Virus record (IMG/VR): IMGVR_UViG_3300006749_000153 | Coordinates: 1-22,910 of that record | Length of the DNA stretch: 22,910 nucleotides | Origin: a virus | Direction: 5' to 3' (one strand) | In this document: piece by piece, positions 5,560-22,813 of the stretch | Position numbering within the stretch: the first letter of the stretch is position 1 | Layout of the letters: every line of letters starts with the position of its first letter | Notes under the pieces: generated by a model | Database searches by the model: none | Told to the model about the DNA's origin: nothing | The model's input: only the letters and a program-made list of their open reading frames with translations | Position numbers and translations under genes: made by a program

Positions 5560-7440
5560 TTAAAAATTTACTACTCTTCCTTTAATATCTTTATTTGGAA
5601 ACTTAACTTCAAATATACTAGGATCTAAAGGAGGATATATAACGCCTTGTCTAGAAGCAGCAGTTAAATCATATACATTTCCGGAATAATTATTAGCTGT
5701 ATCAAATTTATTAATAAATGTTACATCTATTATACTATTTACTCCATTTACCCTGCCTAATATATTCATAATTTCAGACATTACTATAGGTTGATTAATT
5801 TGCCATTTATCAATTATAAAATACTCTTGTAATTTATTTATACATTTTAATAATACTTCATTACTATTAAAGTTAGTTCCAACCGTTATTTCAAATTCAA
5901 CACCAATATTAACTACAAATGCATCTAATATATTTACTGCATCAGTTAACATTCTATAAAAACCTAGATAATTCTTTAAATTTGATTTGATAGCAGGATT
6001 TAATTTTGTTAATTTTGAATCTTGATCTAATCCTAAAACATATAAATTCATAGCTAATGGATTTGGAATTCTTGTGTCTTCCATTTGTCCTTGCGATAAT
6101 TGATCATCCGGAACCATATATGCTTTAGAAACTGATCCAAATTTTGAAGGCATTGAATAACAACGTATAATATAATCATCTCTAGTTACTAATCTATTTT
6201 GAGTTGCAAAGTTAGCCATGGCATTATTTTTTATATCTTGTACTGAATCTTGCGATTTTCCTCCACGCGCTGGTTGTTCATTGTTAACAGTTACACTCGA
6301 TTTAACAAAGTTTAAAAGCGCGCCAGATAGAACTGCATTAGGATCGTCTTCAAATTGAATATTACTTATTTTTGTAATAACACCAGCTGGAACATTATCA
6401 GCAGTGCCTCCGCCTGTAGTAAAAGTTACAGTTAGTGTTGTATTCGAAGGAGCTTGTCCATATGCTCTAGTATATAAAAAATTTGATGGATCGATATCTA
6501 CGTCAATTGGTTTTCTAAATGCAGCTAAGCCATTTCCTACGTTATCTGGATTAGGAATAATTTCTTCGTCATTATTATCAGAAATTCCTGCTCCAAATTG
6601 TAATTCTAATGTATTATCACTTCTTAGTCTAGTTATAAAACGTTTAGATGTTTTCTTTAATTTTAATAAACTAGGACTAGAAGATCTATAAGAAGACAAC
6701 TCCGGGTCATTTTCTAATAAATTTGGAACTTCTTGAAATAATGTATCTTGAGCTAAATAGTCTACTTGATACCATATATCTCCGTCTGACTCTACACATT
6801 GTAATATGTCAATCACATTTGTGCCAGGTAAAACTATTTTATCATATTGTTTAGGAGAAGTAAAAATAAAATCAGCTGTTTCAACTTTACCAGATACTAC
6901 TTTTGCTTTCTTCTTTAATAGAAAATATATTGGCTCTTTAGTTGTTTCATCAGCTTCATATACTGTAACAGTTGTTGGACTTAAAGAAGAACTAAATGAA
7001 AAATCAACAGATTCTAAAGTTCTAAATTCTGCAGGACCTCCTTTTTGTTTTAATTGCATTCCAGGTTTTATTGTTAAGGCATAAGTATAATCTGGAACAA
7101 TTGTTCCATTAGAACTTTTTGCTGGTATTAATTGAAATACATCTACATTACAATATGAAGGAATAGAATTTTTTGCTTTGTATCCTAATGATTTAGCTAA
7201 ATCATATACATTTTTACGCTCTGAAGCTTGTTCTAATAATGACTCTTTTAAATTATTGTCAGCATAATAACTTAATACATCACCAACATATGCTGCCATT
7301 TCCATAAACATCATTCCAGGAGATGATTCATTGAAATCATTAAAATCATTAGGAAAATATTGTTTAGTAAAATCTATTAAATTTCTTCTAAACTGTCCGA
7401 AGTCTTTTCCTAAATATGATACATCTTTTTTTACATCCAT
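5560..7440 (-). CDS. Baseplate wedge protein, gp6-like (baseplate J family)
   Basis: This is the clearest tail gene here. The length (626 aa) is close to T4 gp6 (660 aa). The N-terminal region has the conserved pattern of gp6-like proteins: FGQFRRNLIDFTKQYFPNDF, then ESSPGMMFMEMAAYVGDVLS, YYADNNLKESLLEQASERKN and a segment about aberrant K/R-rich LAKSLGYKAKNSIPS. The central part carries the baseplate-J-like beta domain (GAGISDNNDE, then ARGGKSQDSVQDIKNNAMAN and RLVTRDDYIIRCYSMPSKFG around residues 390-430), and the C terminus holds the VNxGVEFEI/GRVNGVNSIIDV pattern. In T4, gp6 dimers join wedges into the baseplate ring. It follows the gp25-like gene by 24 bases with AAAGGA upstream of the ATG, which agrees with T4-type gene order. 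Confidence 0.93.
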   Translation of the reverse strand: MDVKKDVSYLGKDFGQFRRNLIDFTKQYFPNDFNDFNESSPGMMFMEMAAYVGDVLSYYADNNLKESLLEQASERKNVYDLAKSLGYKAKNSIPSYCNVDVFQLIPAKSSNGTIVPDYTYALTIKPGMQLKQKGGPAEFRTLESVDFSFSSSLSPTTVTVYEADETTKEPIYFLLKKKAKVVSGKVETADFIFTSPKQYDKIVLPGTNVIDILQCVESDGDIWYQVDYLAQDTLFQEVPNLLENDPELSSYRSSSPSLLKLKKTSKRFITRLRSDNTLELQFGAGISDNNDEEIIPNPDNVGNGLAAFRKPIDVDIDPSNFLYTRAYGQAPSNTTLTVTFTTGGGTADNVPAGVITKISNIQFEDDPNAVLSGALLNFVKSSVTVNNEQPARGGKSQDSVQDIKNNAMANFATQNRLVTRDDYIIRCYSMPSKFGSVSKAYMVPDDQLSQGQMEDTRIPNPLAMNLYVLGLDQDSKLTKLNPAIKSNLKNYLGFYRMLTDAVNILDAFVVNIGVEFEITVGTNFNSNEVLLKCINKLQEYFIIDKWQINQPIVMSEIMNILGRVNGVNSIIDVTFINKFDTANNYSGNVYDLTAASRQGVIYPPLDPSIFEVKFPNKDIKGRVVNF

Positions 7441-7464: not shown

Positions 7465-7995
7465 CTAGGTTGGAATAAAGCTAGTATTGCTAGCAAAGTT
7501 TTTAACAGCTTCAGTTTTTATTCCTTCATCTCCAGCAAATATTGTTATTTCTTGTTCAGACTCATTTCCAGTAACTGTAAACCCTAATGATATTTTTATC
7601 TTATGATTTAAATTTGGATCGTCTTCATTAGTAACTATATCAAATTTAGTAATTGATAAGTATGGCAACCAATAATTAGTTGCTTCTGTAATAGTTTCTA
7701 CTATAAATTTTTTAATACCTGGATTATTTGGTTCAAAAATTGCCTTAGCTAAATCAGTACCAAAATCAGGCTCCATATAACGGTCTCCTTTAGTAGTTAA
7801 TATCAAAGACATAAAATTAGTCTTTGCTTGTTCTAAAGTTGTAAATGACTTATTAAATACCCCTTTTCCAGTAAATGGAAATTGTACACCTATAGCTACA
7901 TTAGGACGTAGGTTTAATCGGTCCTCCGGAGTTAGTTTACCCCATTCGGTTTCCCTCGCCGTTTGAATATCTACTTGTGTAATCTTATATGCCAT
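7465..7995 (-). CDS. Baseplate wedge protein, gp25-like (GPW/gp25 family)
   Basis: The core of the GPW/gp25 family is visible at residues 50-110: LTTKGDRYMEPDFGTDLAKA followed by IFEPNNPGIKKFIVETITEA, which contains the family's R-x-M-x-P-x-F-G pattern. Then comes NYWLPYLSITKFDIVTNEDD and a beta-hairpin. T4 gp25 has 132 residues; this one has 176, with about 45 extra N-terminal residues. In T4 gp25 sits at the gp6 ring and the sheath initiation point. Its ATG overlaps the TAA of the upstream 154-aa gene by one base (TAATG), suggesting translational coupling, and the gp6-like gene lies 24 bases downstream. Confidence 0.92.
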   Translation of the reverse strand: MAYKITQVDIQTARETEWGKLTPEDRLNLRPNVAIGVQFPFTGKGVFNKSFTTLEQAKTNFMSLILTTKGDRYMEPDFGTDLAKAIFEPNNPGIKKFIVETITEATNYWLPYLSITKFDIVTNEDDPNLNHKIKISLGFTVTGNESEQEITIFAGDEGIKTEAVKNFASNTSFIPT

Positions 7996-12010: not shown

Positions 12011-12783
12011 GAGTCTCCAAAGGTTTTAAATATATCTGCTATATCATTTTTTATTTCAGGATTTTGTTCTGCTAAATTTTTAATAGCTGTCTTTTTAGTA
12101 GCTTTTGCTTTTTGCGATACTGGCTTTGGAGAATTATTTTTATATGATCTCCATCTTTCATATTCTATTTGTGAAGCCATATGATCTGCATGATGTAATA
12201 TTAAAGGCAAATTAGTTTTTAATTTAGCTTGTGCTGATCTAGCAATAAAATAAGGCTTATTAGAATCATCATATACACCATCATGTATTTTTATAGCTTG
12301 ATATTCATTCCAAGATACTTTTATATCATATTTTTGTAATAAATAAATAGATAAGTCTGGTACCATTGTAAAAGGAATATTTTCATTATGTTTATACATT
12401 CTTCCCATATTCTTTCTATGCCAATCAGATGTTTCTACTTGATACACTTCTCTTCCTTTTCCTGGAAATCCACATTTGCCTAAATCATGATGCATAGCTG
12501 CAAACATCATCTCTTCTCTGTTATACCCAGATGTATCTGATCCCATATCAATCCATGCATCATATAATTTTTCTACGCAATCCATAACACGTAATACATG
12601 ATCAATATAACCTCCAGCAAATGCATTATGATAATGCGCAACAGAAGAAGCAGGCATCATTATAATACGCTCTTCATAATCATCATATAATTTATTTAAT
12701 TTATCTGCTCTAGATGGAAATAAAGTATTAACTCTACTTCTATATTCATCCCAATTGGATTTAATTTTTTCTGCTTCTAACAT
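12007..12783 (-). CDS. HD-domain phosphohydrolase, 258 aa
   Basis: The HD metal-site residues are easy to follow: H62 in GGYIDHVLRVMDCV, the pair H99-D100 in AAMHHDLGKCGFPGKG, a later H167 (KIHDGVYDD) and D200 in LILHHADHMASQIE. HD-domain proteins are metal-dependent phosphohydrolases acting on nucleotides or cyclic nucleotides. The substrate cannot be read here. I chose the ATG at 12783 rather than an upstream one at 12861, because the longer version would run through the small zinc-ribbon gene at 12807-12965. The C-terminal 45 residues (PKPVSQKAKATKKTAIKNLA) are lysine-rich. A TATAAATA octamer lies 5 bases upstream of this start, probably too close to serve as a promoter for a leadered transcript. 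The stop overlaps the next gene (ATGA). Confidence 0.82.
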   Translation of the reverse strand: MLEAEKIKSNWDEYRSRVNTLFPSRADKLNKLYDDYEERIIMMPASSVAHYHNAFAGGYIDHVLRVMDCVEKLYDAWIDMGSDTSGYNREEMMFAAMHHDLGKCGFPGKGREVYQVETSDWHRKNMGRMYKHNENIPFTMVPDLSIYLLQKYDIKVSWNEYQAIKIHDGVYDDSNKPYFIARSAQAKLKTNLPLILHHADHMASQIEYERWRSYKNNSPKPVSQKAKATKKTAIKNLAEQNPEIKNDIADIFKTFGDS

Positions 12784-12806
12784 ATTTTTATTTATATTAT
12801 AATGAA

Positions 12807-12965
12807 TTATTTTGAATATTCCAAAAGACCTTCGGATATCTTGAAAGTGCAAGGAGCACATATAACTGATATTGATGTGTCAGCTACTGTTTCTGTATTA
12901 GTGCAGTTATTATATCTACACTCTAACGTTTTTGTTGTTTTACTTTTTTTAATTGATTTTTTCAT
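12807..12965 (-). CDS. Small zinc-ribbon-like protein, 52 aa
   Basis: This short ORF reads MKKSIKKSKTTKTLECRYNN, then CTNTETVADTSISVICAPCT, then FKISEGLLEYSK and a TAA. Two cysteine pairs, C-x4-C at the start (ECRYNNC) and C-x2-C (CAPC), are spaced like a small zinc ribbon or knuckle. The lysine-rich N terminus would suit nucleic-acid contact. It sits 11 bases after the membrane/coiled-coil gene and 23 bases before the HD-domain start. Its coding frame conflicts with the longer HD-domain start, which is one reason to prefer the shorter one. The family is not known. Confidence 0.65.
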   Translation of the reverse strand: MKKSIKKSKTTKTLECRYNNCTNTETVADTSISVICAPCTFKISEGLLEYSK

Positions 12966-12976
12966 TTAATTTGAAT

Positions 12977-13933
12977 TTATGATTTTACTATTGTCCCGGT
13001 TTTTGTAGGCGGTTTCTTTTCTTCTTCGTAATGAATACCATCATTACCATTTTGTCCAATTATATTCATTCGTTTTTCTGCTTCATCCCAATCACTATTA
13101 GTAGTAACCTTTTCGCCATATATATTTTCTTTTGTATTTTCATTTAGTATATCAAAAGCTTTATTTGATGCAATTAATAAGACTATTGCTAAAGGGTCAA
13201 AAACAAAAATAAAAATTAATATAAACCAATTCACTACTTCATTTGTAGGACGATCTAATAATTCAGAAACATATTTTAATGGTCCTATTTCATTAGCCAC
13301 AGTTGAATTCGATTCAATATCTAAAACTTGCAAATCTAATGATGTAATAGAATCAGTTAAAGATTCCATTTTAATTGAGACTGCATTTCTTTGGTCTTTC
13401 ATATCATTAAGTTGAGCAGTTAATACTTTTCTTGTTGATGAAGATGTAGTAGTAATTATTTGATTTGTTTCCTTATCTCGATATTGTATTTTATTATTAG
13501 ATAATCCCTTAGTTAACTCAGATATTGAATTAGCTAATTGATTCTTTTCAGTTGTATAACTATCTAATTGCTCTTGAAATCTAGTTTTTTTCATTTCAAT
13601 GACAGTTATCTCTTTATCCATAAAAGATAATTCATTTGCTGTTTCCTGATATGCAGCTGTTAAAAATCCATATATACCTAATGAAGTTATAAACATTAAT
13701 ATTACAACAGCACTAGTTAGATATAATTTTAATAAGAAATTTATTTTTTTCCAAAATCGATGTAAATATGTAGCGGTTATTAATTTAGCTGCTTCTAATG
13801 TACCAGCCATAATAGCAACCGCCACAGCTTGTGCTGAAAATAATTTACTAATTCCGAATACACTGTAATATGCAGCACTACCAGCTAACGATAATGCAAT
13901 CAGTAGTACAGTATATACAAATGTTTTATTCAT
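12977..13933 (-). CDS. Membrane protein with four helices and long coiled-coil loop, 318 aa
   Basis: Four membrane segments can be seen: residues 5-25 (TVLLIALSLAGSAAYYSVFG), 33-55 (AVAVAIMAGTLEAAKLITAT), 67-93 (LYLTSAVVILMFITSLGIYG) and 234-255 (NWFILIFIFVFDPLAIVLLI). Between the third and fourth, residues 98-225 form a mostly polar coiled-coil region that contains a Thr/Ser-rich patch (ETNQIITTTSSSTRK). The C terminus is polar and lysine/glutamate-rich (DEAEKRMNIIGQNGNDG). I cannot name the family. It lies 3 bases after the 60-aa gene and just downstream of a 51-aa two-helix protein, beside the peptidoglycan-enzyme genes. A membrane role in lysis, entry or superinfection control is possible, but only by proximity. 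Confidence 0.8.
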   Translation of the reverse strand: MNKTFVYTVLLIALSLAGSAAYYSVFGISKLFSAQAVAVAIMAGTLEAAKLITATYLHRFWKKINFLLKLYLTSAVVILMFITSLGIYGFLTAAYQETANELSFMDKEITVIEMKKTRFQEQLDSYTTEKNQLANSISELTKGLSNNKIQYRDKETNQIITTTSSSTRKVLTAQLNDMKDQRNAVSIKMESLTDSITSLDLQVLDIESNSTVANEIGPLKYVSELLDRPTNEVVNWFILIFIFVFDPLAIVLLIASNKAFDILNENTKENIYGEKVTTNSDWDEAEKRMNIIGQNGNDGIHYEEEKKPPTKTGTIVKS

Positions 13934-14377: not shown

Positions 14378-15562
14378 ATGATTAAGTTGAAAAATTTACT
14401 TTCAGAAGTATTAGGTCCAGTACGAGATGACTTTGATAAGTCATATAATTACCAAATAAGAAATGGAGTATGGCATACACAGAAGAAAGGTGGATCAAAA
14501 TGGTTTTCATTGGCTAATAATAAAAAAGCAATTGATCTTCTTAATAAAACATACCCAACTGATTTTTCTAGAATAGATAATTCAAATTTATTACCATTTA
14601 AAAATAACGATGAAGGAAATAAATTTAGAAAATGGGTTAATGATACATATCCAGAATATGCAAAACAAATAGATTTAGATCCGGAGGGATCATATAATAA
14701 TAGTTATATCAAAAAAGCTTGGAAATCTTATGGTGAAGAATTTATGAATTCTAATAGTAATGTTTCTGCTTTAACGCCTAATTGGTTCCAACAAATTCAA
14801 GTTTCACCTGATGAATTTATGGCATCGCCAGGCACTAAAGGTGGATATGCAAAAGATATGGTAACATTTAAAACAGGTTGGGTGGATATTGTAGATTCTA
14901 CTAAATCAATGAAAATCTGTAATGCACCAGAATTGAAAAATCAATGTGCTTCATTTGTAAATGTAGTAGATGACAGCGTATCTAGTATGGGAGATGCTTG
15001 GAGTAACTGGTGGAGAAAAACCGGGAAAGTTCAATCATATAACGCAATGAAATATATGAGTGATAATGATAAAAGGATGTATGAAAAAAGATTTCAAGAT
15101 TCAATTAATGATCCTACTCCTACTAACAATGGAGGAGGTAATCAAAAAAAGAATATTAAAATGTTAATGCAAGGAATATTATCAAATGCCCCAGGTCCAT
15201 CTCCGTCTGATTTATCTGTAGGGTCACATGTTGGAATATTTTGGCCAAAAAGTAATTATCATCAACAAGCATTAAAAGTTGCAGGACAAAAAGGCATAAA
15301 AGATGGAAAACGAGTAGAATATATGCCATTCAATACTCATATAGGAATAGTAATAGCTATCAAAGACGGAGTTCCAATTATATTACATGAAGTAGATGGA
15401 ATAGGATATGCAGATCCATATGATAAAATTATAGACCAAGGAAAAGTTGTTTGGGTGAAAAAAGAACAACAAGAAGAAAAGAAAAAAGGATTATTTGATT
15501 TATTATTAGAACCATTTCTTTCAAATAACAAAAGTAATAATTTACCAATTAATAAAGCTTAA
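14378..15562 (+). CDS. NlpC/P60-like peptidoglycan peptidase with capsid-targeting-like N terminus, 394 aa
   Basis: The N terminus is MIKLKNLLSEVLG. A helical region follows, with a segment like EGNKFRKWVNDTYPEYAKQI (residues 79-98) and KAWKSYGEEF. Two parts fit the NlpC/P60 cysteine-peptidase fold: C190 in KNQCASFVNVV, at the start of the catalytic helix; and DLSVGSHVGIFWPKSN then H321 in THIGIVIAIKDGVPIILHEV, matching the Gly-Asp/His-Val-Gly-Ile strands with the catalytic His. A P/G/N-rich linker (about 246-256) interrupts the domain. Such enzymes cut peptide bonds in peptidoglycan. The L-x-E at residues 8-10 resembles a T4 prohead-protease site. There is no signal peptide. Its TAA shares a TTAA with the convergent lipoprotein gene. 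Lysis enzyme or packaged entry enzyme cannot be decided here. Confidence 0.75.
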   Translation: MIKLKNLLSEVLGPVRDDFDKSYNYQIRNGVWHTQKKGGSKWFSLANNKKAIDLLNKTYPTDFSRIDNSNLLPFKNNDEGNKFRKWVNDTYPEYAKQIDLDPEGSYNNSYIKKAWKSYGEEFMNSNSNVSALTPNWFQQIQVSPDEFMASPGTKGGYAKDMVTFKTGWVDIVDSTKSMKICNAPELKNQCASFVNVVDDSVSSMGDAWSNWWRKTGKVQSYNAMKYMSDNDKRMYEKRFQDSINDPTPTNNGGGNQKKNIKMLMQGILSNAPGPSPSDLSVGSHVGIFWPKSNYHQQALKVAGQKGIKDGKRVEYMPFNTHIGIVIAIKDGVPIILHEVDGIGYADPYDKIIDQGKVVWVKKEQQEEKKKGLFDLLLEPFLSNNKSNNLPINKA

Positions 15563-16179
15563 GATACAACATAAATCATTGTTCCTATTTTACATAAATC
15601 AATAATTTGATTATTATATTTAATATCGGTAGTAAAACATCCTAAACTTCTACCTATATATCCATTTCTTTTAAAGAAATTATCTGATGCATATTTAGAT
15701 GAATGAAATCTTATTCCACGCTGATGAACTTTATCATTAACTCCAGGTTCTAGTCCATGAATTCTCATAGCTCTGCCAATAACAGAATTTATATATTCAT
15801 CTCCTGTAATAAATGTTCCTATTGAACTCATATTACTTCCAAATTCATTACTAAACTTAGTACAATATTTCCTCCCAGATTTTTTGCCATGCCCGACACG
15901 ACAATTAATAACTACTATTCCATCTTGAAGAACCCATAATCTTTTTTTGGAAGATGGCATTGAATAATCTACTAATATAACTTGTCCTTTATTAGGTATA
16001 TATTGCTCTAATTTTTCTGGTATTTTGATATGTTTAACTTCAGGTAGCTTAGGTCTTTCCAGAAACATTCCGTGAAATACTAATGATGACTTTTTATCTC
16101 TAATATTAAAATTTAATAGTGTGCAACCTGAAATTATCATAACAAGTAACCCAATAAATATATACTTTAGCTTTTTCAT
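15559..16179 (-). CDS. L,D-transpeptidase-fold (YkuD_2-like) lipoprotein, 206 aa
   Basis: From the ATG at 16179 the protein starts MKKLKYIFIGLLVMIISGCT, a lipoprotein signal with the lipobox I-S-G-C (Cys19 lipidated). The earlier in-frame start is a GTG at 16212 and would put 11 polar residues before the signal, so I prefer the ATG. The C-terminal half matches the murein L,D-transpeptidase (YkuD_2) pattern: RAMRIHGLEPG, then H159 in GIRFHSSKYAS, and the catalytic Cys181 in YIGRSLGCFTTD, ending CKIGTMIYVV. Enzymes of this fold crosslink or cut peptidoglycan. A phage-encoded lipoprotein form would sit in the host envelope, perhaps guarding against superinfection or altering the wall. It is convergent with the NlpC/P60-like gene, sharing a TTAA at the stops. 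Confidence 0.78.
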   Translation of the reverse strand: MKKLKYIFIGLLVMIISGCTLLNFNIRDKKSSLVFHGMFLERPKLPEVKHIKIPEKLEQYIPNKGQVILVDYSMPSSKKRLWVLQDGIVVINCRVGHGKKSGRKYCTKFSNEFGSNMSSIGTFITGDEYINSVIGRAMRIHGLEPGVNDKVHQRGIRFHSSKYASDNFFKRNGYIGRSLGCFTTDIKYNNQIIDLCKIGTMIYVVS

Positions 16180-16183
16180 ATCA

Positions 16184-16204
16184 TTTTCTTTATAATAAGA
16201 AATT
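16184..16204 (-). repeat. 21-bp leader repeat, copy 1
   Basis: A 21-base block (begins AATTTCTTATTATAAAGAAA on the minus strand, plus one A) is identical to one at 20591-20611. Here it lies 4 bases upstream of the lipoprotein ATG. Read as coding it gives ISYYKE, which is why both genes have a non-ATG extended frame. It may be a promoter, a leader or a translation enhancer for exported proteins. Confidence 0.6.
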
Positions 16205-16221
16205 CTTTTCACATATCCAAA

Positions 16222-16229
16222 TATTTATA
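16222..16229 (-). promoter_or_regulatory. TATAAATA octamer, candidate late promoter
   Basis: An exact TATAAATA on the minus strand, 42 bases upstream of the lipoprotein ATG at 16179, at a position that suits a T4-type late promoter. The same bases read AATATTTATA on the plus strand, 9 bases before the transglycosylase start, so the site may serve either direction. Confidence 0.35.
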
Positions 16230-16238
16230 TAATATATA

Positions 16239-17225
16239 ATGATTAAACTTAAAAACATATTATTAGAATTAACAGACAAAGAAAAAGAAGCTGCAGAAGC
16301 AATTAAAGCCGGCTTAGATGCAATTCGATCAAATCAAAAAAAGATTGACGCAGTAAGTCATCATATATTTCAAGCTAGAGATTCATCATGGGGTGAAAGT
16401 TGGGCAAAGAAAAATTTTGGTAATGATAGAACAGGTATTAGATCATTAGCTCTAGCAGTTTATTCATTATATCATTATGATAATGTAGATATAAACATTA
16501 TAAAAACTATTATTTCAATAATATTGCGTGAAAGTAAAGCATCATCAGCTATGGTTAATATTGGTCCGTCCGGACAAGAATTTTTAGGATGGGTACATAA
16601 TATGGTTGGTGGAAATCATTCTCAAGGCTACGCTCAAATACAACCAGATCTTGTTAAAAGATATAATTTACCTGAAGACACATTAGAGACGATGTCTGGT
16701 GCGGTTAATGGATTATATAAATTAATTACATCACATTATAATAAAGCTGTAAGTAAAGGGTATAAAGGGTCGAAAGTTACAATATGGGATAAAGATTCAA
16801 AAAAGTTTAGAGAACAAGAGGCAGTACTTGGAGATGCTGCATTACATATAGCTATTGCAGCACATAATGGAGGTTCTGGAATAATTCAACAATGGTGTAA
16901 AACAAATAAACTAGGATTAGCAGCTCCATGTGGCAGTACAAATTATAAAAATGATGGTAGAATATCAACCGGCGAAAAAATAAAAAATTATGTTCCTAGG
17001 ATGCAATCATCTAGAGGCGATACAGTACAATATATGAACCAAGTATATAATTCTTTTGATAATTTAGAAGGGATTGAAGGAGCATTAACTAAAGGATTAT
17101 TTCATGTTGCAAAACCGCCTGCAGCTCAATTAAATTTATCTCCTGCACAGATTGATCATATGAATAAAAAAATGAAAATATATACTCCCGGAGTTAGTTC
17201 AATGAATACTCCCGGTACAGTTTAA
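16239..17225 (+). CDS. SLT-type lytic transglycosylase with capsid-targeting-like N terminus, 328 aa
   Basis: The protein begins MIKLKNILLELTDKEKEAAE, then a polar helical region. The transglycosylase (SLT/goose-lysozyme-like) landmarks follow in order: E98 in IILRESKASSAM (catalytic acid), SQGYAQIQPDLVKRYN (128-143, the G-x-x-Q-I strand), ALHIAIAAHNGGSGIIQQW (201-219, the A-x-x-x-Y/H-N-x-G helix) and KNYVPRMQ (249-256). Such enzymes cleave the MurNAc-GlcNAc bond. The N-terminal 10 residues nearly match those of the NlpC/P60-like protein, and an L-x-E (LLE at 8-10) is present. There is no signal peptide or membrane helix. The C-terminal 60 residues are P/N-rich. The stop overlaps the convergent SH3-like gene by a shared TTAA. 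A lysis or entry role is open. Confidence 0.8.
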   Translation: MIKLKNILLELTDKEKEAAEAIKAGLDAIRSNQKKIDAVSHHIFQARDSSWGESWAKKNFGNDRTGIRSLALAVYSLYHYDNVDINIIKTIISIILRESKASSAMVNIGPSGQEFLGWVHNMVGGNHSQGYAQIQPDLVKRYNLPEDTLETMSGAVNGLYKLITSHYNKAVSKGYKGSKVTIWDKDSKKFREQEAVLGDAALHIAIAAHNGGSGIIQQWCKTNKLGLAAPCGSTNYKNDGRISTGEKIKNYVPRMQSSRGDTVQYMNQVYNSFDNLEGIEGALTKGLFHVAKPPAAQLNLSPAQIDHMNKKMKIYTPGVSSMNTPGTV

Positions 17226-20632: not shown

Positions 20633-22813
20633 TTATCGACAATATGGAGTCATTTCAAATGCAGTTCCGGCTAATGGAGCATAACAACTAAATTCAATAT
20701 TAGTTTTACCTTGAACTGGTAAAGTACTATCTCCTTCTTTCACTGTTAATTGTGGTAGCCCATTCGATCCAATTACTTTGAATAAAGAAGCTACAGCATC
20801 TACTTTTTCCAGCCAATTATAGAGTTTTTTCATTTCTGGTGTTACTTTTTTACTGGTATAAGATGCATTCCATGCTTTCTTTATAACTGCCTCTTCAGCC
20901 GGAGTTCCTTTTGGTATATTCTCACTATAAGTGCCAGCAAGATATTGTTTAAATATATAGTTAGGACTTAACTTATCCCATGAGTATTTGCTCCATGCTG
21001 TGTAAGCATTAATGCTTCCTCCAAAACTAGATGGACCAATTAAAGCTTTATTTATGTCATAGGATGCGATACCAAGTTTATCAGCTACTTCTTCTAGAAC
21101 TTTTGCAGTGGTTTCGCTAGCTGGTCTTCCTGTTCCTCCAATTTTATTTAAAGATGTATCCGTTAAAAATTGTGAAAGTTCAGAAAAATTTGTTGCGTCA
21201 AACTTTGGCATCTTAAAATATCTTACAGCACATCCTTTATGAAAAGCTCCATTAGGATAAGCCACTGACATTAATCCTAATAATATACCCCAGGCCTTGA
21301 AGTGATCAGCACCACCTGCATCATTGCTAGAAAAGTACGCATTAAACTTGCCATCAATACCAAATCTATCTGGTACTGTATATGGATTACATGTTAATCC
21401 TGTTAAACCTTGTAGTTGTAAGGTATCTTGCACCATGAAGTTTGGAGCATCTCCTCTAGAATAACTTCTGGTTATTGAATCGGAATTGCATCTTATTCTT
21501 TCGCCTGATATAAAAACGGATACTTGTATAAATTGTTCGTCTATTATTGCCCTCATTATTTTTCGATATTCTTCAGTTGGCATTTGACGTATAACATAAG
21601 GAGCAACAGCTTTAGGATTTGCATCAGCTGCTTTTTTATACTCTTGATAAGCTTTTTGTGATTTTTCATCCCATGGAGTTTTGCCAATTTTAGTGGTAAA
21701 AGCTAATGATTTAACGTTAATTTTATCACCATAAAATTTTGTTAATTCTGTTTCAACATAACTCTGTATTGAGTCACCTCTTTTTCTAGCTAAGGATCCT
21801 GGTTCTTTTACGTTAGTTCCAGTTTCTTGGTCTGTATTTGGTATTAGAGACTCTCCGCCTTTAAATTGTATACTTAATTGCGAAACATTGGGGTTAGCTT
21901 CTACAATTTTTTTTATTCTTTCAATAACAGCTGTTATTCCTCGAAAAACTGTAGGATTATTTTCTGATACGCTCCAATATCCTGCTTTAAAAGTTAATGT
22001 TGCATTAGCTATATTTTGTTTGTCTTTAACGAAAGCATCTTTTTCATCATCACTTTGTTCATTTAATGATTCTTTTATTACATTTTTTAATCTATTCTGC
22101 GAATTATAAAAAATAAATGACTTATATACTTGTTTTGGTGTTAATCCAAAATTATGAGCTAAATTATCTAGTATATCAGCAACTAAATGTTGTTTTTCAA
22201 GGTCGGTATGAAGCTTTTGACCAAGTATTTGAATGATTCTTTCTAAATATACTATATATCCTTTTGGTAATCGTCGTAATGCTCTAGATTTACCGGTATG
22301 TACTCTAGTTCTAGTATGTTTTTTCTGTTCTGACACTAATAATTTTGATAAATCTGCAGATGAAGTAACAGATTCTTGTGGATCTCCGGGAGCAGGTGAT
22401 GTAATTGTATCTCCAGCTTCTACAGCATCACCTTCTGCATCTACTTTACTATCTTCTCCAGCTCCTGCAGAGCTTAACCCTTCTAATTCGTCTAATGGAA
22501 GATTACATTGTAACGTATAATCTTGATTTCTTGCATATCCGCCGTATGGCACAATAGAAATAATACCATCTTTCATTAATTTAGACAATACATCTGGTGT
22601 TAAATTATAATCTTTACCACTTCTCATAAGAAATTCACGTATTCCTACTGAATTTTTAGTGTACAATATACCTAATGAAGTTGCTCCTAGCTCTACAAAT
22701 TTAGCTAGAAACTTTTCTTCTGCCGGCGAAAACACTCCTGCATCAGATTCTTGCTCATTTAGCTTACCTAATAAAGATTCTCGTATAATATTTCTTAAAA
22801 ATTGCTCTTTCAT
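20633..22813 (-). CDS. Large protein with duplicated prohead-protease-like motif, 726 aa
   Basis: The N terminus reads MKEQFLRNIIRESLLGKLNE. A helical region and an acidic G/A-rich linker follow (about 110-150), then a basic helical segment (about 163-255) that ends in RLKNVIKESLNEQ at 241-253, a clear relative of the N-terminal motif. Both copies carry L-N-E followed by Q, like the (L/I)-x-E site of T4 prohead protease. Residues 300-390 loosely resemble an OmpA-type peptidoglycan-binding domain (VSQLSIQFKGGES, then LARKRGDSIQSYVETEL). The remaining 330 residues are unrecognised and end in SCYAPLAGTAFEMTPYCR. The start overlaps the stop of the histone-like gene (ATGA). A processed, possibly packaged virion protein is an inference. 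Confidence 0.8.
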   Translation of the reverse strand: MKEQFLRNIIRESLLGKLNEQESDAGVFSPAEEKFLAKFVELGATSLGILYTKNSVGIREFLMRSGKDYNLTPDVLSKLMKDGIISIVPYGGYARNQDYTLQCNLPLDELEGLSSAGAGEDSKVDAEGDAVEAGDTITSPAPGDPQESVTSSADLSKLLVSEQKKHTRTRVHTGKSRALRRLPKGYIVYLERIIQILGQKLHTDLEKQHLVADILDNLAHNFGLTPKQVYKSFIFYNSQNRLKNVIKESLNEQSDDEKDAFVKDKQNIANATLTFKAGYWSVSENNPTVFRGITAVIERIKKIVEANPNVSQLSIQFKGGESLIPNTDQETGTNVKEPGSLARKRGDSIQSYVETELTKFYGDKINVKSLAFTTKIGKTPWDEKSQKAYQEYKKAADANPKAVAPYVIRQMPTEEYRKIMRAIIDEQFIQVSVFISGERIRCNSDSITRSYSRGDAPNFMVQDTLQLQGLTGLTCNPYTVPDRFGIDGKFNAYFSSNDAGGADHFKAWGILLGLMSVAYPNGAFHKGCAVRYFKMPKFDATNFSELSQFLTDTSLNKIGGTGRPASETTAKVLEEVADKLGIASYDINKALIGPSSFGGSINAYTAWSKYSWDKLSPNYIFKQYLAGTYSENIPKGTPAEEAVIKKAWNASYTSKKVTPEMKKLYNWLEKVDAVASLFKVIGSNGLPQLTVKEGDSTLPVQGKTNIEFSCYAPLAGTAFEMTPYCR

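Follow-up and report, generated by a model that had tools for sequence, protein, structure and literature searches.

It is already known that T-even phages have a capsid-targeting sequence (CTS), found on internal proteins that are otherwise unrelated (PMC3012670, PMC9026906, PMC12373910), and mutagenesis of the leader of T4 internal protein III (IPIII) has shown that residues 4 and 7 control targeting and residues 8 and 10 control processing (PMC9026906). Head ejection proteins of phages SPN3US and phiKZ carry propeptides removed by proteases related to gp21, which cleave at a short motif with a terminal Glu (PMC5694885), and gp16 of phage T7 is a head-borne, wall-cutting transglycosylase that is ejected at infection (PMC8954989). 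Here we describe a ten-residue N-terminal sequence, hereafter the tag, that begins two proteins encoded in a 22.9-kb virus fragment (IMG/VR record IMGVR_UViG_3300006749_000153, positions 1 to 22,910; "the window" is this whole stretch of DNA, which excludes the head gene cluster). We put at roughly three in four the probability that the tag, MIKLK[ND][IL]LxE, is a counterpart of the T4 CTS, an address peptide at the N terminus, with a gp21-type cut after E10 and delivery of the cargo to the host. Phage proteins that are injected have no body sequence in common and so are difficult to detect; those of T4 relatives are recognised by their leader alone.

A ten-residue N terminus shared by unrelated proteins

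Two window proteins, of 394 and 328 residues, begin MIKLKNLLSE and MIKLKNILLE, respectively. The two N termini agree at all but residues 7 and 9 (8 of 10 positions identical) and the bodies that follow are without similarity, which confirms the initial annotation's observation that two unrelated proteins share their first residues. The generic T4-CTS spacing, M-x-x-Φ-x-x-Φ-Φ-x-E (Φ, hydrophobic), fits exactly two open reading frames (ORFs) of the window, so that the further proteins starting with the motif that the annotation had suggested looking for are, within the window, limited to the pair already reported. Applied to T4, the same spacing rule gave 6 matches where 1.8 were expected, namely ipII, ipIII, alt, gene 24, 61.1 and a sixth, of which the first four encode known substrates of gp21. 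Gene 61.1 (NC_000866, 18966–19130, minus strand) encodes a 54-residue hypothetical protein, gp61.1, whose CTS-like start, MKTFKEFIKE, makes it a candidate for an unrecognised internal protein.

The window pair might be ordinary late lysins whose N termini are alike by chance or ancestry, given that endolysins of both kinds exist and that a membrane protein gene (12977–13933) lies close to the tagged genes. However, chance yields far fewer such N termini than are found. A degenerate DNA pattern for MIKLK[ND][ILVFM][LF]xE, searched over viral contigs, matched at least 120 loci, as against 6 in the whole collection for a codon-permuted control pattern, and among the matches listed 121 of 132 lie at plausible ORF starts. 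Across bacterial and archaeal genomes (257 Gb) the same tag matched 63 times, with 17 of the matches at plausible ORF starts; several of these 17 are homologues of viral tagged proteins, stand on contigs in metagenome bins and look like phage. Moreover, among the loci collected at least 206 distinct proteins start with the tag, and these form at least 117 unrelated clusters (86 of them singletons) when bodies are compared without the first 12 residues. Unrelated bodies cannot inherit their first ten residues alone from a common ancestor, and we regard lysins that resemble one another by accident or descent as a very improbable account. Contigs L511, L512 and L514, binned as Flavobacteriaceae and Nitrosopelagicus, bear two tagged genes each; they are probably phage contigs, hinting at hosts or at misbinning.

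The excess was also seen in loci picked by their prohead protease and not by the tag. With expectations obtained by N-terminal shuffling, 80 such loci contained the narrow tag form 12 times (0.2 expected) and the generic form 32 times (3.2 expected), compared with 0 (0.1 expected) and 5 (2.5 expected), respectively, in 120 random viral loci. The 32 generic matches amount to 13 sequence families, since the loci include near-duplicates. One group of generic matches, proteins encoded near TerL that start MxxxDKΦΦxEW[AS][YF]R...KGYPD, was rejected as a false family since its conservation continues beyond residue 10. Among the random loci, L351 (at 3366 and 5470), L315 and L350 carry the T4-style leaders MKTYQAFITE, MKSFNQFLVE, MKTFKQFISE and MKKFNEFLNE, suggesting that CTS-like tags of the classical form may also be common in uncultured phages.

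Selection acts on the tag as a peptide. Its codons vary synonymously at constrained positions (Ile2 is ATT, ATA or ATC, Leu4 uses six codons, and Asp6 is GAT as often as GAC), the preceding 20 bases show no conservation, and the conserved stretch ends with E10. The constrained residues are L4, I or L at 7, L8 and E10, with residue 9 free, and these four positions coincide with the targeting and processing residues of T4 IPIII. Because E10, like residues 4, 7 and 8, is built into the search pattern, we examined it in the protease-picked loci, where it is present in 11 of 11 ORFs that start MI[KR]L (0 of 2 in the random loci). Across the 117 clusters, Lys5 is encoded by AAA in 97 of 99 cases and Lys3 in 86 of 106, a codon bias. 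The Lys5 figure is what might be expected if the likeness were a signal at the level of DNA or RNA, such as a translation-initiation element or a recombination joint, instead of one carried by the peptide; yet the varied codons of Ile2, Leu4 and Asp6, the unconserved upstream bases and the retention of Leu8 and E10 on either side of a free residue are the pattern of a peptide, and we find a nucleic-acid signal scarcely credible.

Association with gp21 and gp23, and the range of putative cargo

Of 69 viral records with the tag, many being short, 35 contain Peptidase_S77, the gp21 family, as opposed to 6 of 32 random records; so do 16 of the 17 tag-bearing viral records that show gp23. The S77 proteins keep the conserved His and Ser regions. 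Two large tag-bearing records without S77 (G017, 207 kb; G011, 125 kb) lack the whole head cluster and were treated as fragments. The gp23 of about 70 records contains [LI][VIL]xE, mostly followed by Ala, in alignment with the T4 maturation site FLTE↓A; cleavage is predicted at this site, which has the same form as tag residues 7–10. Immediately 3′ of gp21, many loci encode a member of a small-protein family that starts with the tag or a variant of it (MIKLSKLLTE, MKNLKELLNE, MKLKSLLKES, MIKLKDILKE) and is probably a core component; L028 has five distinct tagged genes in the gp21–gp23 interval. In G007, a 368,758-bp virus record, the gp23 match (91495–93003) is interrupted by one in-frame TAA.

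These associations bear on the idea that the peptide sorts proteins to some other site in the virion or host, such as the tail, the baseplate or a membrane. The tagged window genes do stand among baseplate and late genes, and tagged wall enzymes of relatives resemble tail lysozymes (PF18013). Set against this are the link with gp21 and gp23, the match to the gp23 cleavage motif, the tagged genes in the gp21–gp23 interval and the agreement with the T4 CTS at its defining residues, and we hold a destination outside the head to be highly improbable.

Pfam families recognised among the tagged proteins include Nudix, ART-PolyVal, RNase_T, Zeta_toxin, RimK-type ATP-grasp, Pribosyltran, GNAT and NT5C, together with the wall-degrading families Peptidase_M23, Phage_lysozyme2, Hydrolase_2, Phage_lysozyme and LysM. 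G023 alone encodes nine tagged proteins from nine unrelated families, where 0.01 were expected. In G055 and G057, relatives of the window, a tagged protein combines Peptidase_M23 (E = 3e-22 and 2.3e-23) with Phage_lysozyme2 (E = 4.8e-29 and 1.3e-33), and its counterpart in G023 starts MKLKHILNE, a tag one residue shorter; tagged wall enzymes therefore recur in the lineage independently of the window pair. Microcystis phage Mel-JY01 (PP395634, 60276–62718) has three neighbouring tagged genes (MIKLKSLLQE, MIKLKSLLKE and MIKLMSLVTE) of one family whose bodies begin IISDRVWHLT and which looks like ADP-ribosyltransferase-type proteins; the first of the tagged proteins is encoded at 60276–60926. Flavobacterium phage immuto encodes tagged proteins at 24569–24994 and 103366–103806.

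The breadth of this cargo also speaks to whether delivery is involved. A tag could bind the prohead core and be cut while the proteins that bear it serve head assembly or stay in the head, as might hold for the tagged family adjoining gp21 and as the LxE sites near the N termini of the T4 core proteins gp22, gp67 and gp68 would suggest. However, many of the tagged enzymes (Nudix, ADP-ribosyltransferase-like, exonuclease, zeta-toxin kinase, ATP-grasp, NT5C and wall hydrolases) are implausible in assembly, and Alt and the internal proteins (IPs) are a precedent for delivery; we consider a role confined to the head unlikely.

The tagged window proteins and their locus

According to the initial annotation, both tagged window proteins are wall-cutting enzymes, a reading that fares better for one than for the other. 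The 328-residue protein has GH23-like motifs in order (E98-S, G-Y-A-Q at 130–133 and A-A-H-N-G-G-S-G at 207–214). A GH23 motif expression, written after this protein had been seen, recovered 2 of 4 E. coli SLTs without a single match among 18,535 background ORFs, and hhalign against E. coli Slt, MltC, EmtA and MltD gave E = 0.0035 for a short match in one comparison; the SLT profile PF01464 gave no match at E up to 10. From its three ordered motifs and this alignment, the protein is probably a GH23/SLT-type transglycosylase. The 394-residue protein has C190, LxxGxxVxxF, H321 and H337 in order, a local likeness to NlpC/P60, and hhalign to NlpC/P60 gave E = 0.081 on 14 columns; the NLPC_P60 profile PF00877 gave no match at E up to 10, leaving this assignment with zero profile support. 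An NlpC/P60 motif expression was discarded because it missed 3 of 3 E. coli positive controls, as were AlphaFold2 single-sequence models of both proteins, which were unusable, with predicted local distance difference test scores of 34.5 and 37.7 (about 38 for the 394-residue protein).

The window phage, which is aquatic, is T4-like, as placed by its gp6 homologue, which among named phages is closest to that of Mel-JY01 (51% identity), followed by Flavobacterium phage immuto (39%). Protein searches of viral contigs found only one near-identical contig (L001). Long synteny with the window is seen in G048, G016, G023, G018, G057 and L055, and gp6 of the first five is 62–68% identical to that of the window (66% in G023). 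A gp21-type protease is encoded by G016, G023, immuto and Mel-JY01, and because G016 and G023 encode both gp21 and gp23, the window phage very probably has both as well.

Table 1. Features of the window (positions in the 22,910-nucleotide stretch).
Feature	Position	Strand	Basis
Baseplate wedge gp6 homologue	5560..7440	-	PHROG 219, E = 2.5e-22
Baseplate wedge gp25 homologue	7465..7995	-	PF04965, E = 4e-7; PHROG 261, E = 4.6e-13
Variable slot between two conserved flanks	13937..17722		Gene maps of G016, G018, G023, G057, L055
Tag 1, MIKLKNLLSE (residues 1–10 of ORF 14378–15562)	14378..14407	+	Direct reading; cleavage after E10 predicted
Tagged protein, 394 residues	14378..15562	+	NlpC/P60-like motifs in order only; family not established
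L,D-transpeptidase (YkuD_2), untagged, between both tagged genes	15559..16179	-	PF13645, E = 3.1e-42
Tag 2, MIKLKNILLE (residues 1–10 of ORF 16239–17225)	16239..16268	+	Direct reading; cleavage after E10 predicted
Tagged protein, 328 residues, probable GH23/SLT-type transglycosylase	16239..17225	+	Motifs; hhalign

The tagged genes run opposite to the neighbouring late genes. In the relatives the equivalent slot holds different genes, again on the strand opposite to their neighbours, several of which bear the tag or a close form (MIQLKSLFNE and MIKLKNILQE in G016, MIKLQDLLLE and MIKLTSLLSE in G018, MIKLKNLLAE in L055). A second recurrent leader, MKN[LIT]L[SA]ENM[LMR]RFG[TV]KNLSE, which contains two LxE sites, sits in G016 (52781–53389), G023 (128935–129627), G057 (12374–13000) and L055 (5615–6928), and is sometimes fused behind the first: MIKLKNILAENMRRFGTKNLSE.

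The L,D-transpeptidase that separates the tagged genes has an N terminus that reads as a lipoprotein-type signal sequence (...IISGC). Its likelier start is the ATG at 16179, the mechanical ORF extending to a GTG at 16212, and it had no homologue among the other loci collected. Such a lipoprotein could modify or mend the wall of the infected cell, for example against a second phage. Farther along, a 726-residue protein (20633–22813, minus strand) begins MKEQFLRNIIRESLLGKLNEQ; its homologues in G048, G055, G057, G018, L055 and G023 keep the N-terminal helix, which ends in LxEQ or similar, and this N terminus is possibly a longer leader cut by gp21.

Proposed delivery route and comparison with described systems

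In the reading that we favour, L4 and the I or L at position 7 would dock a newly made protein onto the prohead core. Once the shell closes, a gp21-type protease would cut after E10, with L8-x-E10 as its recognition site; this would be the enzyme that matures gp23, acting on the same kind of site. The freed cargo would remain with the DNA and exit through the tail into the next host. In the window phage two genes in a variable late-region slot carry the tag, and if both enzyme readings hold, wall-cutting enzymes carried in the head might breach or weaken the wall where the tail tip sits, or do their work following entry.

Several points weigh against this reading. The ten residues agree with MKTYQEFIAE in pattern and not residue by residue. 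The 22.9-kb fragment holds neither head genes nor a prohead protease, so that the gp21-like protease which the initial annotation had proposed to look for is absent from the window itself. Neither window enzyme found a match in Pfam, PHROG, PDB or phage tblastn searches. In the protease-picked loci the gp21–gp23 interval is not enriched in tags (7 of 154, compared with 19 of 606 elsewhere; p = 0.45), and the tagged genes in that interval are therefore only descriptive; a larger interval test (p = 4e-5) included loci chosen for the tag and was not used as evidence of enrichment. Packaging, cleavage and delivery of the tagged proteins are predictions from sequence. Finally, T4 internal proteins work in the cytoplasm, and wall enzymes need the periplasm. 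The head-borne transglycosylase of T7, gp16, is able to act in the periplasm (PMC8954989), and it already sets a precedent for a role that the annotation had considered out of the ordinary for head contents. The annotation's central proposal, that the shared N terminus is a sorting tag, has in turn gained strong comparative support from the spacing and key residues of the T4 CTS, the 117 clusters, the association with gp21 and gp23, the form of the gp23 site and the tagged putative core genes.

A broader proposal, to which we give slightly better than even odds, is that a large aquatic T4-like clade runs an open delivery system in which addition of MIKLKDILxE would send any protein to the head and on to the next host, the tag having been joined to more than 100 unrelated families. 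If so, tagged wall hydrolases would stand in for the tail lysozyme or add to what it does, and N termini alone would list the injected effectors of uncultured phages. Likewise, if the tag is a second CTS family, predicted virion-delivered proteins with roles in anti-defence, host take-over or wall opening could be listed in uncultured aquatic phages, and the window would offer a case of wall enzymes in the head of a contractile-tailed phage.

Neither the tag consensus nor its string was found in the open literature searched, which for the string comprised 5.39 million papers and which excludes most subscription journals. Like the CTS of T4 IPI–IPIII and Alt (MKTYQEFIAE, MELITELFDE), the tag occupies the ten N-terminal residues with hydrophobic positions 4, 7 and 8 and Glu at 10, is common to proteins with unrelated bodies, goes with a protease of family S77 and presents a predicted cleavage site of the form (L/I)xE. 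Nearer to MIKLKNLLxE than the IP leader is the N-terminal propeptide of T4 gp24, MAKINELLRE, which shares the tag's ten-residue spacing and its E10. Annotation lists this head protein as a gp21 substrate; gp24 is, however, a capsid vertex protein and not cargo. The propeptides of SPN3US and phiKZ differ from the tag in being mostly long (more than 100 residues) and in having A-x-E sites, and T7 gp16 differs in being a podovirus core protein whose transglycosylase domain lies within a large channel protein with no detachable targeting tag. Unlike the T4 CTS, the tag has the consensus MIKLKDILxE, begins members of at least 117 clusters where T4-type leaders begin a handful of proteins per phage, has a putative cargo that includes wall hydrolases, Nudix proteins, kinases and ATP-grasp enzymes, and is known from sequence alone. 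The CTS itself being known, what appears to be new here is a CTS-like leader with a different consensus and a much wider cargo.

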